From Halonatronum saccharophilum DSM 13868 (lineage in GTDB: Bacteria; Bacillota; Halanaerobiia; Halobacteroidales; Halobacteroidaceae), in contig NZ_KI912097.1 in assembly GCF_000517025.1 (NCBI RefSeq), forward strand, positions 316,820 to 373,462: 56,643 bases of DNA. The letters are read 5' to 3'. Below are positions 36,698 to 46,743 of this stretch, one piece after another. The notes under the pieces are model-generated. The model was not told the DNA's origin. It saw nothing but the letters and a program-made list of their open reading frames with translations, and made no database searches. How positions within the stretch are numbered: the stretch's first letter is position 1; each line of letters opens with the position of its first letter. The translations under genes and the position numbers were made by a program.

Positions 36698-38074
36698 TTA
36701 TACCATTTCTTTAGGGTCGATAGCTTGCAATAGTTCATCTGTAAGCATTCCTTTTTCTTCTAAAACCTGTTTTAATTTTTTATCTTGCTCATCTGCTGTT
36801 AACCCGATCTGTGATGCCATATCATAGCCTAGTTTAGGACTTAACCCTGTAACTAAGGATAGACTCTCATTCATCCATTGCTTACAGATTTTCTCATCTG
36901 CTTGAATACCTGTGATACATTTTTGAACAAGTGTATCTATTGCATTACTCATTAATTTAATCGAATGAAGGAATGTATGGGCTATGAGAGGCATCATCAC
37001 ATTAATTTCTAATTGACTGCCCATAATAGCCGTTGAAATGGCTGTTTCGTACCCTATTACTTGGCAACAGACCATATGGGTCATCTCTAAAATAGCGGGA
37101 TTTACTTTACCTGGCATAACTGTTGATCCAGGCTGAACAGGTGGTAATGTAATCTCAGCTAGTCCTGTCCTTGGCCCTGAACTTAGTAATCTTAAATCAC
37201 TAGTTATCTTTATTAAATGAAGGGCTAACTCTTTTAATATTAACATACAGTCTAATGGCTCACTCATATTTTGCATAAAGGCAAATATATTCTTTGGCTG
37301 TCTAAAACTTAAGTTAGTACGATTATTAATTTCCCCAATTACTTTTGGCACATAACCTGGTTTTAAGTTAATATTTGTTCCTACAGCATTCCCTCCTAAA
37401 CCAATCTCATATAACCCTTCAACACCTTCTTTAATTTGTTGCTTCATTTTTTGGATGGTCTGTGCATAACCTGAAAATTCTTGTCCTAACCGCATAGGAA
37501 CACCGTCATGTAAATGGGTGCGACTAGCTTTTAATACTGGCATAAATTGTTCAGCTTTCTTTTGTAGTTCTTGTTCTAGGTTGGTCAGAGCTGGACTTAG
37601 CTTTTGTTTTATTGATTCAACAGCAGCAATATTTAATGCAGAAGGAAATGTGTCATTAGTAGACTGTGACATATTAACATGGTCATTGGGGTGAACTTCT
37701 TGTACACCGGCCATAATTTCAGTTGCACGCCTAGCAATGACTTCATTTGCATTCATATTCTGTGATGTCCCTGCACCTGCTTGATAAACATCTACAGCAA
37801 ATTGTTCATCCCATTTACCATCAATCACTTCTTGAGAGGCTTGTATAATGGCTTGACCGATATCAGGCGAGAGTGAACCTAATTCTACATTTACAGATGC
37901 ACTAGCAGCTTTAATAATTCCTTGTGCCCTTATAAAAGCACGAGGTAATCGAATGCCACTGATTGGGAAATTATTAATTGCACGCTGTGTTTGTGCCCCA
38001 TAGTAGGCTGTTTTAGGAATCATAATATTACCTAATGTATCATTTTCCATTCGATATTGTGTGTGTTTATCCAT
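36698..38074 (-). CDS. fumarase/aspartase superfamily lyase
   Basis: 458 residues, the usual length. Conserved blocks: GAGTSQNMNANEV, HPNDHVNMSQSTNDTFPSA, RTHLHDGVPMRLGQEFSGYA, and the signature GSTVMPGKVNPA carrying the catalytic serine. The signature proline-glycine (MPGKVNP) favours class II fumarase, while GSQLEINVMMPLIA and SDLRLLSSGPRTGLAEI resemble aspartase, so fumarate hydratase versus aspartate ammonia-lyase is undecided. Arginine is mostly written CGN here, unlike the AGA/AGG habit of neighbouring genes, and the sequence looks Bacillus-like, suggesting transfer. AAAGGAGAG precedes the ATG. Confidence 0.85.
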   Translation of the reverse strand: MDKHTQYRMENDTLGNIMIPKTAYYGAQTQRAINNFPISGIRLPRAFIRAQGIIKAASASVNVELGSLSPDIGQAIIQASQEVIDGKWDEQFAVDVYQAGAGTSQNMNANEVIARRATEIMAGVQEVHPNDHVNMSQSTNDTFPSALNIAAVESIKQKLSPALTNLEQELQKKAEQFMPVLKASRTHLHDGVPMRLGQEFSGYAQTIQKMKQQIKEGVEGLYEIGLGGNAVGTNINLKPGYVPKVIGEINNRTNLSFRQPKNIFAFMQNMSEPLDCMLILKELALHLIKITSDLRLLSSGPRTGLAEITLPPVQPGSTVMPGKVNPAILEMTHMVCCQVIGYETAISTAIMGSQLEINVMMPLIAHTFLHSIKLMSNAIDTLVQKCITGIQADEKICKQWMNESLSLVTGLSPKLGYDMASQIGLTADEQDKKLKQVLEEKGMLTDELLQAIDPKEMV

Positions 38075-39559: not shown

Positions 39560-39601
39560 AACTAAAAGCCTTAATAAGAAGTTATGAAGGAGGTGAAAAA
39601 A

Positions 39602-40390
39602 TTGTCTGTCAATACCAATAGAAGAATATTACAATTGTTAAACCTTCTTGCCTTCATTTTAGTAGTTGTCATTAATGCTCTAGCAAATATTTTACCTATT
39701 AACGATTATACAACAGGTGAAGTAGCTGGATTATATCCTAACTTATTTACTCCAGCACCGATTACCTTCTCTATCTGGGGGCTGATTTATCTTTCATTAG
39801 CATTCTTTACCTTATATCAGCTTAGAGGTTTACTTTCTATACCAGATTCTCAAGTTGACTTCTTAGATAGAATAGGTTACTTATTTTTTATTTCATCTTT
39901 AGCCAATGCAAGTTGGATCTTTGCTTGGCATTACCTTAAAATTGGTCTATCTTTTATAATAATGCTTGTGTTGTTAACTTCTTTAATATTAATCTATAAT
40001 CGCTTAGAAATTGGACTAAGAAGAGTAAGTAGATCCGAAAAATTATTTGTCCATCTTCCCTTTAGCATCTATACAGGATGGATTACAGTAGCAACTTTAG
40101 CTAACTTAACTACATTACTGGTTGATCTCAACCTTTATGATAATATAATTCCAGCAATCCCTTGGACTATTGGAATGATTGCCATTGCAGTTATAGTTGG
40201 AAGATATATTTATATTAAAAGAAGAGATCTGTATTATAATTTAGTAATAGTCTGGGCATTATTAGGCATTATAATTAAACGCCTTTTTATAGCTGAAGAA
40301 TTAATAATTAGCGTAGTTATAGCTGCTATTATAGGTATTATAATTATCACAGGAATAGTTGTGAAGAATTTCAAATTTGATCTTTCATAA
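39602..40390 (+). CDS. TspO/MBR-related membrane protein
   Basis: The start is probably TTG 39602, since AAGGAGGTG sits just before it; the ATG at 39584 precedes this site. About 262 residues, eight or so membrane helices, longer than the five-helix TspO. The N-terminal half has the TspO-type motif LFTPAPITFSIWGLIYLSLAFFTLYQ and NASWIFAWHY. This long subfamily is common in Bacillota; a role in tetrapyrrole or stress signalling is inferred from TspO and not shown. Confidence 0.75.
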   Translation: MSVNTNRRILQLLNLLAFILVVVINALANILPINDYTTGEVAGLYPNLFTPAPITFSIWGLIYLSLAFFTLYQLRGLLSIPDSQVDFLDRIGYLFFISSLANASWIFAWHYLKIGLSFIIMLVLLTSLILIYNRLEIGLRRVSRSEKLFVHLPFSIYTGWITVATLANLTTLLVDLNLYDNIIPAIPWTIGMIAIAVIVGRYIYIKRRDLYYNLVIVWALLGIIIKRLFIAEELIISVVIAAIIGIIIITGIVVKNFKFDLS

Positions 40391-40441: not shown

Positions 40442-41572
40442 CTAAGAAATCAGAAAAAGAACAATAGTTCCAGCTGCCAAAATACCCCACAAAGTGCGGT
40501 TATAATCCCATACTCGCCTTCCGTTGTAAGATTCGAAAGGAAATAAAGGAAGAAGCACCTCATATATTAGCAATGAATAGGCCAAAAAGAATGAAGTTCG
40601 CAATAGATTACTTATCATCTCAGGTGCGATATTACTAATTGCTAATGCCTGGTAGGCAAAAATAAGCCAAGCAAGAATAAGCACCGAAAGCGCACCAAAA
40701 AATGATATGATTGCAAGCTGTGATAACTTTTTGCGATAGCTCCACCGAACTTGCTTAGGATAATAGCAGCCTGGAGACGGAAAAACTCCACCTAAGAAAA
40801 CAGCAATAATTGCCGAGAGCGTAAGTCCAGTTTCCCAAATTCTATACTCTAACTCACATCCAATCCAATTTGCAACTAATTTCATTGTCAGAGAACGTAC
40901 TCCAAATACCAAGGCAACTGCAATCGGTAGTTGCCACATAAGTTCAGTTGATGACCCGACACGAAAGCATTGAAGCATTAAAATAACTGACATAATCAAC
41001 ACATTAGCCCACCAAGCTAAGGCACCTCCACCTACAAACTGGCGAGTATCCTCTAAATTTTCAGACCCTTTTGAACTCTGGGAGATATCCCCAGATCTAG
41101 CCCACAGAAAATGGCCAATATCTATTGTATGAAATGTCTTTGGCCCTATTTTTAGTAAACTAAGACCATACCGGCGTATCTGCTGCATAGCACTAAGGGG
41201 CATAAAGCCTTGATCAGCAAAACGATTACTCGAATCAGTATTATAACCCTCAACTGTTGTAAACATCTCGTCACAACCGAGTTCTTGTAATTTTCTAACC
41301 GAATGCTCAATTAATGCACTAGCTACACCCCGACCACGTGCTTTCTGATCAGTAAATAGCCACTTTACCACACCACCAAGCCGATTTCTCTGGAAAGCAA
41401 AAGTTTCAAGTACAACAACTCCTACAATCTCTTCTGAAAGTTCATACACATAGGTATGTTCAGTTGTTTTAACTAAGCTGCCATGTAAAAAACCAAAAGA
41501 GCTTTTAGCAAGGCTTTTTACCTTAGCTTCTTCTTCCTCTCGCATTAGGCGAATTGCTTCCAACACTATCAT
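40442..41572 (-). CDS. GNAT acetyltransferase fused to a site-2-protease-like membrane domain lacking catalytic residues
   Basis: 376 residues. Residues ~1-135 are a GNAT domain with the acetyl-CoA loop DQKARGRGVASALI and GYNTDSSNRFADQGF. Residues ~185-376 are six or so membrane helices aligning by eye with archaeal-type M50 proteases: NWIGCELEYRIWETGL...FPSPGCYYP for the family's A-x-x-x-G-x-x-x-EFRxWxxGL...FxAPGAVYI, and LPLFPFESYNGRRVWDYNRTLWG for NxxPxxPxDGxKVxxWNxxxW. The HExxH position reads VRSLTMK (~225-231) and the DG aspartate is Asn350, so it should be proteolytically dead. G+C is visibly higher than around it. Start could be ATG 41572 or GTG 41566, the latter better spaced. Confidence 0.65.
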   Translation of the reverse strand: MIVLEAIRLMREEEEAKVKSLAKSSFGFLHGSLVKTTEHTYVYELSEEIVGVVVLETFAFQRNRLGGVVKWLFTDQKARGRGVASALIEHSVRKLQELGCDEMFTTVEGYNTDSSNRFADQGFMPLSAMQQIRRYGLSLLKIGPKTFHTIDIGHFLWARSGDISQSSKGSENLEDTRQFVGGGALAWWANVLIMSVILMLQCFRVGSSTELMWQLPIAVALVFGVRSLTMKLVANWIGCELEYRIWETGLTLSAIIAVFLGGVFPSPGCYYPKQVRWSYRKKLSQLAIISFFGALSVLILAWLIFAYQALAISNIAPEMISNLLRTSFFLAYSLLIYEVLLPLFPFESYNGRRVWDYNRTLWGILAAGTIVLFLIS

Positions 41573-41631
41573 CTCCTCCTTATTATTTAGGGATCAATCT
41601 TTTAAACTTTATTAATATTAATTACTTCCCA

Positions 41632-41843: not shown

Positions 41844-42146
41844 CTATGATTTATAAATAGCTTTTCCTTCTTCCTCGATATTATCAACCAACCTTTCCTT
41901 GCTCAAACCATAAACATCAACCACATCAATCTTATAAATAATATCTAACTGCTCTAGCTCATCTCTTAATAGATTAAAATCTTTACTATCCATACCCTTT
42001 GCATAAATTCCAATATCAATATCAGAACCTTTTCTCCAATCACCCCTAGCTCTGGAGCCAAAGATTACAGCTTTCTCTATCTTCTCCTCCTGACCTATAA
42101 CCCTTACTATCTCCTCTACGACCTCTTCCTTTAATCCAAACCTCAT
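41844..42146 (-). CDS. mntA: MntA-type minimal nucleotidyltransferase (antitoxin)
   Basis: 100 residues of the MNT/HI0073 family. The motif GSRARGDWRKGSDID is the GSx10DxD AMPylation signature, with a further Asp in IDVVDVY. In MntA/HepT systems it adds AMP to the HEPN toxin and silences it. Its ATG overlaps the TAA of the HEPN gene by one base. It reads toward the broken zinc-ribbon half. Confidence 0.82.
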   Translation of the reverse strand: MRFGLKEEVVEEIVRVIGQEEKIEKAVIFGSRARGDWRKGSDIDIGIYAKGMDSKDFNLLRDELEQLDIIYKIDVVDVYGLSKERLVDNIEEEGKAIYKS

Positions 42147-42547
42147 TACTCTACTTCCTCTTCCTTCAACCTATCATAAACAGCCTTAAGGTTATCAAAA
42201 TGTTTTTCTTTAACTTTTTCATAGATACTCCTAGCCCTCTCTTCATCATAGGTATGACTAGTTAAATTCCTATCCTTTAACATATCAATCCAAGCCTCAC
42301 CATCTTCTATCAAACCAATAGCATAAGCCTCTCTAAAGGTACTCCTTGGACTTTTGGCCCCTTCGATTCCTTGATACTCAAGGAAATATTTCATGACCTT
42401 CCAAGCTAATTCATAATTAAATTCAAATCTTTGAATCACACCATCTATCATCAAAGGATTTATATCCTTTTCTTTCAATCCTTCCTCTAATCTATCCAAA
42501 GCACTCTTAAAATCCCCTAACTTCTCTTCCCAGCGTAATGAATTCAT
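42146..42547 (-). CDS. hepT: HepT-like HEPN protein (HI0074 family, putative toxin)
   Basis: About 133 residues from ATG 42547 (AAGGTGGT upstream; a GTG six bases earlier is less likely). All-helical; the HEPN nuclease motif R-x4-H-x-Y is complete: RNLTSHTY, Arg93/His98/Tyr100. The HI0074 branch was first annotated as nucleotidyltransferase substrate-binding protein; related HepT toxins are RNases neutralised by polyAMPylation of the tyrosine. It is upstream of mntA in a coupled pair. Confidence 0.8.
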   Translation of the reverse strand: MNSLRWEEKLGDFKSALDRLEEGLKEKDINPLMIDGVIQRFEFNYELAWKVMKYFLEYQGIEGAKSPRSTFREAYAIGLIEDGEAWIDMLKDRNLTSHTYDEERARSIYEKVKEKHFDNLKAVYDRLKEEEVE

Positions 42548-42704
42548 AACCACACCACCTTTTTAAATTATAAATTATTGAAAACATATTTATATTATAG
42601 TTTAAACACATCACTACCCTCTCTATACCTACCTCATCTACTTTATTATTTATCCAAAACTAATAATTATCCTTTTATGTATTTTCATTTTCAAAATAAT
42701 ATAA

Positions 42705-44358: not shown

Positions 44359-46743
44359 TCACTCCTTAAATCTCCTTCTAAAATAATATGTCTTCCTATA
44401 CTTTAGGATATCTAAAAAATGCTCTGCTAAATCTTTATTTAAATATGGCTCTAACTCTTCCACTAACATAAACTTCTTATTTATCTCGTCATAAATAAAA
44501 TAATCCCTTTTACTTAGATACTTTATCGGATTTCTAACTGCTTCTTTAATAAATTTATCCTTGGCCCAATCCTTCCAATTCTTATGCCTTTTATTATTTA
44601 GATCCTTTTGATGTACCTTATATTCTTTATAAAAATTCATATAGATCTCGCCTACTCGCCCAATACTGACTTCTCTTTTTAACTTATTATCATCATCTAA
44701 CAATGACAGCAATGTAGGTATCTTATAGGACTTACTCATACTGGTTTTTTCTAATTCAAGTAAAAATTGTTCAACAATAGTATCAAGCCATATCTTCTCA
44801 TTCTCATTTAATTCTCCAATCGAATCTAAAAATCTTAAATACCCTTTATATTTTCCTCTAGTGTATTCTTTGATATCGATATCTACACCCTCATAGATAT
44901 CCTTTCTCAATGGCCTTCTTCCTAAACTATTCTTTAACCTAAAGTATTCATCCCTCATTCGCTCCCTTAAAGGATCATTAGCTGCCATCTCTTTGAATAA
45001 ATCAATCACTTTAAAATCAAAAGAGACCTTACAATCATCTGGATATTCAAACTCTTCAATCTCTCTAATATCCATCTTCTTAGACTCCATTGGGTTCTTA
45101 CCTGATAAAAGCAATGGGATATAATGTGCCCGCTTATAATTCCCTATAAAATCTAGCACCTTTAGATGCTCTTTTTCTGAATCTTCATCTTTTCTTAACC
45201 CTCTACCCAATTGTTGTAAGAAGAGCACATAAGATTCTGTAGGTCGTAGAAATAATACTGTATCTAGCGAAGGAATATCGATCCCTTCATTAAAGATATC
45301 TACTGCAAAGATAATATCTATATCTCCTTTAGAAAGATTAGCGATTACTTGATCTCTTTCCATAAAGTGTTGGCCCTTGTCCTTTGAGCTATGTACAGAA
45401 ACAGCTTTAATGTTATTATCATTAAAATATTGGGCCATATAATTAGCATGGCTAATAGAAGCACAAAAGCCTATCGTTCTCTTCCCAGCTAAACTATTAT
45501 AGTGCTTTAAAATCAAATCTGCTCTTTGATGAGTAGATAAATTTTTCTCTAAATCCTTAGTATTATATTGGCTATTCGAAAACTGTACTTGATTATAATC
45601 AACCTCTGAATCATAGATCCCATAGTACTTAAAAGGAACCAATAGCTGGCGATTAATGGCATCCTTTAAATTAATTTCATAGATTATATTATCATCACAT
45701 AACTGATTAATATCCTTATTATCCATCCGATAAGGTGTTGCAGTCAATCCCAATAAGAAATTTGGTTCAAAATAATCAATAGCTCTCTTGTATGTATCTG
45801 CAGCTGCATGATGAAATTCATCGACTATAATATACTCAAATTCTTCTTTTTTAAAGTAATTATCATTTAAATATTCTTCTTTCCCTAATGTCTGGACACT
45901 AGCAAATACAGCTTTACCACTTTTATCTTTTTCTTCACCATTAAAGAATGAGGTTTTTAAGTTAGGACTTATAGTCTTATATGAAGCTTCTGCTTGTTTT
46001 AAAATCTCTTCTCGATGAGCTATAAATAACACCTTAGTAAAATTAATCGAATCAAAAGCAGCCAAATAAGTCTTACCAATACCTGTTGCAGCTACAACCA
46101 TCCCCTTATTATAACCTTCTTCTCTAGCTAGCTTCAACTCACATAAAGCTTCAATCTGAGCACCTCTTGGCTCTGGAACCTTAGTTTGACTATATCCTTC
46201 TTCTACCTCTTCTATATACTTTCTTGGTTTTCTCCAATTACTTGCATAATTATTTAATACCTTCTTATCTATTACAATCGATTCCTCATTATAGATTCTA
46301 TTAAATTCTTCCTCAAATTTATCATAAGCTTCTTTATCAGTCTCCTTGACTAACCTATAATTCCACTCTACCCCTGATATCAATGCGGAGTAAGAAAGGT
46401 TAGAAGAACCTATAAAGAGAACCTTCTCCTTCTCATTTTTAAAAAAGTAGCTTTTTGGGTGAAATGAGATATCCTCTTGACTAAAGAACCTTAAATCCAC
46501 CATATCTCCTAATTCATATTTTAATAAACTTAAAGCTGATGGCTCAGTTATATTCATATATCTGCTGGTAATAATCTTTATATCGGCTCCCTTTAATGCT
46601 TGCTTCTTCAACTCTTTAAGAATCAACTTAACTCCAGACTCTCGAAGAAAAGAGACTAGTATCTTTATATCTTTAGCCTTTCTTATCTCTTCAATTAAAT
46701 GAGAGTATAATGATACTCCTCTTCCTGTTATAGAATTTTGCAT
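44359..46743 (-). CDS. PLD-domain SF2 DEAD/DEAH-type helicase
   Basis: 794 residues. Residues ~10-155 are a phospholipase-D-like domain with HxK (His95, Lys97) and IGSSNLSYSAL. Residues ~185-560 are a superfamily 2 motor: AATGIGKT (Lys224), DEFHH (~308-312), GLTATPYRMD, and QQLGRGLRK. The C-terminal ~230 residues include a REEMR-x-FxRLKNSLGRRPLRKDIY helical segment of unknown role. The domain order matches SSL2-type helicases with N-terminal PLD nuclease found in defence islands. Coupled with a MazG-like enzyme. Probable role in phage defence or DNA repair; inference. Confidence 0.85.
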   Translation of the reverse strand: MQNSITGRGVSLYSHLIEEIRKAKDIKILVSFLRESGVKLILKELKKQALKGADIKIITSRYMNITEPSALSLLKYELGDMVDLRFFSQEDISFHPKSYFFKNEKEKVLFIGSSNLSYSALISGVEWNYRLVKETDKEAYDKFEEEFNRIYNEESIVIDKKVLNNYASNWRKPRKYIEEVEEGYSQTKVPEPRGAQIEALCELKLAREEGYNKGMVVAATGIGKTYLAAFDSINFTKVLFIAHREEILKQAEASYKTISPNLKTSFFNGEEKDKSGKAVFASVQTLGKEEYLNDNYFKKEEFEYIIVDEFHHAAADTYKRAIDYFEPNFLLGLTATPYRMDNKDINQLCDDNIIYEINLKDAINRQLLVPFKYYGIYDSEVDYNQVQFSNSQYNTKDLEKNLSTHQRADLILKHYNSLAGKRTIGFCASISHANYMAQYFNDNNIKAVSVHSSKDKGQHFMERDQVIANLSKGDIDIIFAVDIFNEGIDIPSLDTVLFLRPTESYVLFLQQLGRGLRKDEDSEKEHLKVLDFIGNYKRAHYIPLLLSGKNPMESKKMDIREIEEFEYPDDCKVSFDFKVIDLFKEMAANDPLRERMRDEYFRLKNSLGRRPLRKDIYEGVDIDIKEYTRGKYKGYLRFLDSIGELNENEKIWLDTIVEQFLLELEKTSMSKSYKIPTLLSLLDDDNKLKREVSIGRVGEIYMNFYKEYKVHQKDLNNKRHKNWKDWAKDKFIKEAVRNPIKYLSKRDYFIYDEINKKFMLVEELEPYLNKDLAEHFLDILKYRKTYYFRRRFKE

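Follow-up and report, generated by a model that had tools for sequence, protein, structure and literature searches.

A gene of Halonatronum saccharophilum encodes a GNAT acetyltransferase joined to a C-terminal membrane domain that is shown, by sequence profiles and a predicted fold, to be a degenerate site-2-protease (S2P, M50) domain. The same fusion occurs in 19 distinct proteins. With moderate confidence, from the sequences, the models and known analogues, we read the protein as a membrane-tethered acetyltransferase, in which the dead S2P domain would both anchor the enzyme and hold its substrate. The window, that is the whole stretch of DNA analysed, is 56,643 nucleotides long, and the open reading frame of the GNAT/pseudo-site-2-protease fusion has exactly the coordinates first given for it. 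Its features are as follows:

40442..41572, reverse strand: fusion gene, 376 amino acids from the ATG at 41572 or 374 amino acids from the GTG at 41566
41575..41580, reverse strand: Shine-Dalgarno sequence AGGAGG, read from the sequence, 2 nt before the ATG and 8 nt before the GTG at 41566
41093..41572, reverse strand: GNAT acetyltransferase domain, residues 1-160 (Pfam PF00583, AlphaFold2, Foldseek)
41321..41338, reverse strand: acetyl-CoA-binding motif R79-x-x-G-x-A84 (RGRGVA), from alignment and conservation
41024..41092, reverse strand: linker of low confidence, residues 161-183, variable in length between homologues
40445..41023, reverse strand: pseudo-site-2-protease membrane domain, residues 184-376, five helices and a re-entrant strand segment
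40883..40897, reverse strand: RSLTM in place of HExxH, residues 226-230, with Arg226 conserved in 13/17 (joint alignment)
40826..40849, reverse strand: EYRIWETG, residues 242-249, equivalent of AEFRxWxxG in archaeal M50
40757..40783, reverse strand: FPSPGCYYP, residues 264-272, equivalent of FAAPGAVY in archaeal M50
40514..40531, reverse strand: SYNGRR, residues 348-353, equivalent of PLDGxK, with Asn350 for the zinc-ligand Asp

The GTG at 41566 is in frame, two codons after the ATG, and is the better spaced from the Shine-Dalgarno sequence, so that a product of 374 amino acids is likely. The full-length AlphaFold2 model was of good quality (pLDDT 86.7, pTM 0.84), with pLDDT below 50 in the linker at residues 164-172 and 174-181, a region that is gapped in the homologue alignment.

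The N-terminal part behaved as expected for a GNAT, in agreement with the initial annotation. Residues 28-123 matched Pfam PF00583 (Acetyltransf_1) above cut-off (E 4.9e-10), the pLDDT of this part was mostly 83-95, and the R/Q-x-x-G-x-G/A acetyl-CoA-binding motif was present, with G80 and G82 conserved in 16 of the 17 aligned sequences. The best Foldseek matches were Ard1, Naa30/NatC and Naa50; the closest solved relatives are protein N-terminal acetyltransferases, although such structural matches do not discriminate between protein substrates and small molecules. NCBIfam gave weak matches to MshD, ArsN1 and AAC models, and GNAT families include many small-molecule enzymes. At a position where many GNATs have a Tyr, which is often the general acid, 16 of 17 homologues have a Phe (Phe118). 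From the sequence, the enzyme could use another mechanism, or the domain could sense acetyl-CoA without being catalytic.

Direct look-up would miss the relationship of the C-terminal part to S2Ps, because the Pfam, NCBIfam and PDB profile searches were all negative. No Pfam family recognised this part, and relaxing the limit to E 10 brought no Peptidase_M50 match to the window domain or its relatives; an NCBIfam search gave no M50 match, and a PDB profile search was empty. The relationship emerged from a profile (A2) built from fused membrane domains only, with no intact protease. In 115 genomes from the phylum to which a Thermococci MAG belongs, A2 matched not only the fused protein of that MAG but also stand-alone proteins, mostly of 190-220 residues, with per-genome E-values down to 1e-16. 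It found 29 archaeal stand-alone M50s (E 1e-13 to 1e-17), all of which read HELAH, HEIAH or HELSH together with (L/M)DG, and 13 intact stand-alone M50s of Chloroflexota, the phylum of an Anaerolineales MAG (E 1e-7 to 1e-13). Pfam Peptidase_M50 (PF02163) recognised the intact relatives tested, above cut-off (4/4 archaeal and 2/2 Chloroflexota proteins), but no fused member at the limits used. Conversely, a profile of the intact M50s alone matched the window protein over the whole domain (E 8.7e-11). The similarity to M50 thus extends across the core in both directions (E 1e-11 to 1e-17), and the motifs stay in register. Shallow M50 alignments of the RseP, YwhC and SpoIVFB types gave weak matches by hhalign, the best being to the SpoIVFB type (7.7e-5). 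On these sequence comparisons, the archaeal M50 type is the missing bridge from the fused domain to the S2Ps.

These closest intact relatives, stand-alone archaeal and Chloroflexota M50s of about 190-240 residues with a PGAV motif, have the same membrane domain and the same order of blocks (HExxHK/R, AEFRxW, AAPGAVY, AGPxxN, FNLLPxPPLDGxKV). They differ from the fused protein in keeping HExxH and the Asp and in lacking a GNAT domain. The flanking blocks that the initial annotation took to be of M50 type were all found in the window protein and aligned with those of the stand-alone archaeal M50s: EYRIWETGL with AEFRxWxxGL, FPSPGCYYP with FAAPGAVY, and FPFESYNGRRVWDYNRTLWG with FNLLPxPPLDGxKVxxW.

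The predicted fold points the same way. As the GNAT domain fills the Foldseek list of the full-length model (only GNAT proteins were among the matches listed), the membrane part was modelled alone, from an alignment of 14 fused sequences and no intact protease. AlphaFold2 gave a confident model (pLDDT 90.5, pTM 0.87), for which the five best VIA-align matches were all S2Ps, with rmsd 4.1-4.8 over 129-145 residues: 3b4r (mjS2P, Z 8.4), 8vjl (SpoIVFB, 7.7), 9j82 (RseP, 7.6), 7w6x (RseP, 7.0) and 8vjm (SpoIVFB, 6.7). Z scores of 7-8 are possible by chance for helical proteins, and the top Foldseek match, again mjS2P (3b4r; E 0.76, probability 0.63), is not significant when taken alone. A viral structure library gave nothing significant. 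The S2P assignment therefore rests on the sequence profiles together with the finding that all five top matches of a predicted, rather than solved, structure are S2Ps. Neither outcome that the initial annotation named as refuting, a C-terminal fold unrelated to S2P or homologues with no M50 similarity, was observed, and the annotation is supported both in what it saw and in its principal interpretation. Those best structural matches (mjS2P, SpoIVFB and RseP) are themselves active zinc proteases with no GNAT domain, and share 12-16% identity with the window protein over the aligned part.

What has become of the catalytic site? We addressed this with a joint alignment of 68 sequences, 18 of them fused. 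HExxH was kept in none of the 18 fused proteins, and in the window protein its place is taken by RSLTM. The zinc-ligand Asp is replaced by Asn in most fused proteins (Asn350 of SYNG in the window), with the surrounding Pro and Gly in register with PLDGxK, and the Asn of GPxxN is absent from all of them. The loss of HExxH and of the catalytic Asp read from the first sequence is thus a property of the fused clade as a whole for HExxH, and of most of its members for the Asp. The sole fused member with an Asp (SYDGRR) is that of the Thermococci MAG (L014, 3144-4220, forward strand), in which HExxH is absent; its SYDGRR is a partial remnant of a zinc site. Because the zinc ligands and the catalytic Glu are missing, peptide cleavage by an S2P mechanism is not expected of the fused protein.

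The old active site has nevertheless not been left to drift evenly. Among 193 membrane-domain columns, Arg226, at the place of the first His, ranked 15th in conservation and Asn350, at the place of the Asp, 30th, compared with rank 153 for the column of the old catalytic Glu. Trp246, Tyr271, Pro345 and Gly268 were also among the top conserved columns, and Trp246 and Glu247 are conserved in or around the old active site. A GNAT domain and HExxH never occurred together: the 68 profile hits, which are related rather than independent sequences, comprised 19 with a GNAT domain and no HExxH, 44 with HExxH and no GNAT domain, 5 with neither and none with both. A search for homologues of the fusion with an intact HExxH, as the initial annotation had suggested, accordingly came up empty among these hits.

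A further group of membrane proteins came to light beside this family. The window domain has a weak match (0.001) to the NCBIfam family NF041501, FGLLP motif-containing membrane protein; these are large proteins that lack HExxH and a GNAT domain and have other N-terminal parts. FGLLP seems to occupy the place of the S2P FNLLP, and by sequence NF041501 is possibly a second pseudo-S2P family. Its members in the phylum of the Anaerolineales MAG include:

L122, 1333-3333, reverse strand: matched by the fused-domain profile (1.7e-8) and by the intact-M50 profile (1.1e-5)
L128, 1-1905, forward strand: matched by the fused-domain profile (3.2e-4)
L129, 1330-2283, reverse strand: matched by the intact-M50 profile (9e-4)
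L132, 76-1905, forward strand: NF041501 member

The fusion is widespread but rare and patchy. It was found in Halanaerobiia, Clostridia-type MAGs, Spirochaetes, Chloroflexota, a cyanobacterial plasmid (Acaryochloris marina), a haloarchaeal plasmid (Natronorubrum bangense) and the Thermococci MAG. The homologue of Natroniella acetigena is 86% identical to the window protein and that of a Spirochaetaceae MAG 59-60%; the same two parts are joined in the Thermococci MAG, the Anaerolineales MAG and a Clostridia MAG. More fusions came from other members of the window's class, from a single additional genome of its phylum, and from one more genome each in the phyla of the Spirochaetaceae and Anaerolineales MAGs. 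Overall, the gene was present in 2 of 8 genomes of the window's family, 10 of 59 of its class and 2 of 398 sampled from its phylum, the window's own included. Phage and viral collections gave no relative of the fusion, and plasmids searched with a query consensus gave no match. In a tree that has long branches, a branch supported at 99/98 had the fused domains together on one side, a topology consistent with one founding event of fusion and catalytic loss.

The sequence has also been held under constraint. Compared with its Natroniella orthologue, the whole gene had dN 0.068 and dS 0.235, a ratio of 0.29 (0.24 by YN00). The GNAT part changed more slowly (dN 0.026, dS 0.138, ratio 0.19) than the membrane part (dN 0.094, dS 0.325, ratio 0.29), and the dead membrane domain is itself under purifying selection. 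Recurrence in 19 distinct proteins and a dN/dS of about 0.24-0.29 show that the fusion is not a chance joining.

The initial annotation had also noted a deviating base composition and suggested transfer. The GC content of the gene is 0.402, whereas 40 long open frames of the window average 0.331 (SD 0.034). This gives a z of about 2, and one frame is higher; the difference is thus real but modest. The Natroniella copy lies in a different gene context, next to a transposase-like open reading frame, and the dS between the genera was 0.24 for the fusion gene compared to 0.60 for one other gene, tested against a congener of Natroniella in a single comparison. Together, the patchy distribution, the differing contexts and the GC content make horizontal transfer plausible; it is suggested rather than proven.

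Gene context names no substrate, as no neighbouring gene, biosynthetic or other, was common to the homologue loci read. In the window, a Polbeta nucleotidyltransferase and NTase_sub_bind (HEPN-like) pair of the MNT/HEPN toxin-antitoxin type lies directly upstream (41844-42553, reverse strand). A protein of 794 amino acids with a PLD-like start and a helicase (44359-46743, reverse strand) matched a type IV restriction enzyme in PADLOC (6.5e-87). A defence role, prompted by these two loci, was considered for the fusion protein and rejected, as it had no PADLOC match itself. Convergent with the fusion gene is a membrane protein of 268 amino acids (39584-40390, forward strand) that had no Pfam match above cut-off and by eye looks TspO/MBR-like. 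Elsewhere, in an aspartase/fumarase-like relative of window 36698-38074 (L151, in genome G004), a TAG stop falls inside the matched region, and an N-terminal piece of 45 residues lies apart on a different contig; perhaps the gene is disrupted, or the assembly is broken there.

How might the two halves work together? Acetyl-CoA is cytosolic, which would place the GNAT domain in the cytosol, and the charge pattern agrees weakly with this. The dead domain, having kept the S2P fold and flanking motifs, would anchor the enzyme at the membrane and hold the substrate, most likely the cytosol-facing end or a lysine of a membrane protein. Arg226 and Asn350 appear to be the centre of a rebuilt pocket at the former catalytic site, which probably has a role in binding rather than catalysis. 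The acetyl group would then be added at the membrane surface, much as happens with Naa60/NatF and its amphipathic anchor. Naa60/NatF is a membrane-associated GNAT that is held by its C-terminal part and acetylates transmembrane proteins (PMC4993997). It would be the nearest functional analogue of the fusion protein, the structural similarity being that of GNATs in general, although it is eukaryotic, associates through an amphipathic helix and has no S2P domain. We put forward more tentatively, as a possibility somewhat short of even, that an intramembrane protease lost its catalytic centre on joining an acetyltransferase, and that the rebuilt site, with Arg in place of His and Asn in place of Asp, now captures membrane proteins or amphiphiles so that the fused enzyme can acetylate them.

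One rival reading is a regulatory pseudoprotease, in which the S2P domain, though dead, would engage the transmembrane substrates of active site-2 proteases, or partners of these proteases, much as iRhoms bind the substrates of rhomboids, and the GNAT domain would be a sensor that reads acetyl-CoA or gates the binding. Catalysis has been lost while the fold is retained under purifying selection, three M50 proteases of the active type are encoded in the host genome as possible targets, and nearly all members carry Phe118 instead of the usual GNAT Tyr. There are precedents as well. EGY3 of Arabidopsis, an S2P homologue, has no HExxH and is classed as a pseudoprotease, yet it is important in vivo (PMC10978774); by description it is the nearest analogue of the dead half, and differs in being a plastid protein that is not described as a GNAT fusion. 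The iRhoms likewise retain the fold of a membrane protease but not its catalytic residues and serve a role other than proteolysis (PMC3149277), but theirs is a rhomboid and not an S2P fold and they carry no acetyltransferase. Against a regulator speak the slower GNAT domain (dN 0.026, compared to 0.094), which looks like the working part, the intact acetyl-CoA motif and the lack of a conserved neighbour in the loci read, and we regard it as unlikely. A tethered or scaffolded acetyltransferase would fit at least as well as the pseudo-rhomboid-like regulator inferred in the initial annotation.

We find it similarly improbable that the membrane domain has become a pocket in which an amphiphile, such as a lipid or polyamine, is acetylated by the GNAT domain. 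The conserved Arg226, Asn350, Trp246 and Glu247 at the old active site would suit a polar head group, and small-molecule enzymes are common among GNATs, including those of the weak NCBIfam matches; yet a biosynthetic neighbour common to the loci read was not found. A plain anchor, fixing the GNAT domain to the membrane with no binding role, would account for the roughly three- to four-fold greater amino-acid change that the membrane part takes compared with the GNAT part, but would have no need of Arg226, Trp246, Gly268, Tyr271, Pro345 and Asn350, which are among the better conserved residues; its probability is low. Far less credible still is a C-terminal part unrelated to S2Ps, its likeness arising by chance. 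The silence of Pfam Peptidase_M50 at E 10 and the empty PDB search would be expected of such a protein, but two-way profile matches with motifs in register and five S2Ps at the top of the structural comparison would not. The tethered acetyltransferase thus remains our preferred reading.

Pseudo-S2Ps (EGY3, in plants) and membrane GNATs were already known; a conserved prokaryotic family uniting both was not found in the literature searched. That search, of open-licence papers with most subscription journals outside it, found no description of a GNAT/dead-S2P fusion. In eukaryotes, rhomboids without catalytic activity have become important regulators, and dead site-2 proteases are known mainly from plants.

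Here, every member found of a prokaryotic family that spans several bacterial phyla and archaea combines a dead S2P with an acetyltransferase, and S2P ancestry explains a domain left unnamed by current family libraries. In bacteria and archaea alike, the family is a candidate for acetylation localised at the membrane, and it offers a compact, testable case of a membrane protease turned into a targeting device. If the capture of membrane proteins or amphiphiles by the rebuilt site is true, protease substrate recognition would have been turned into targeting for another enzyme.
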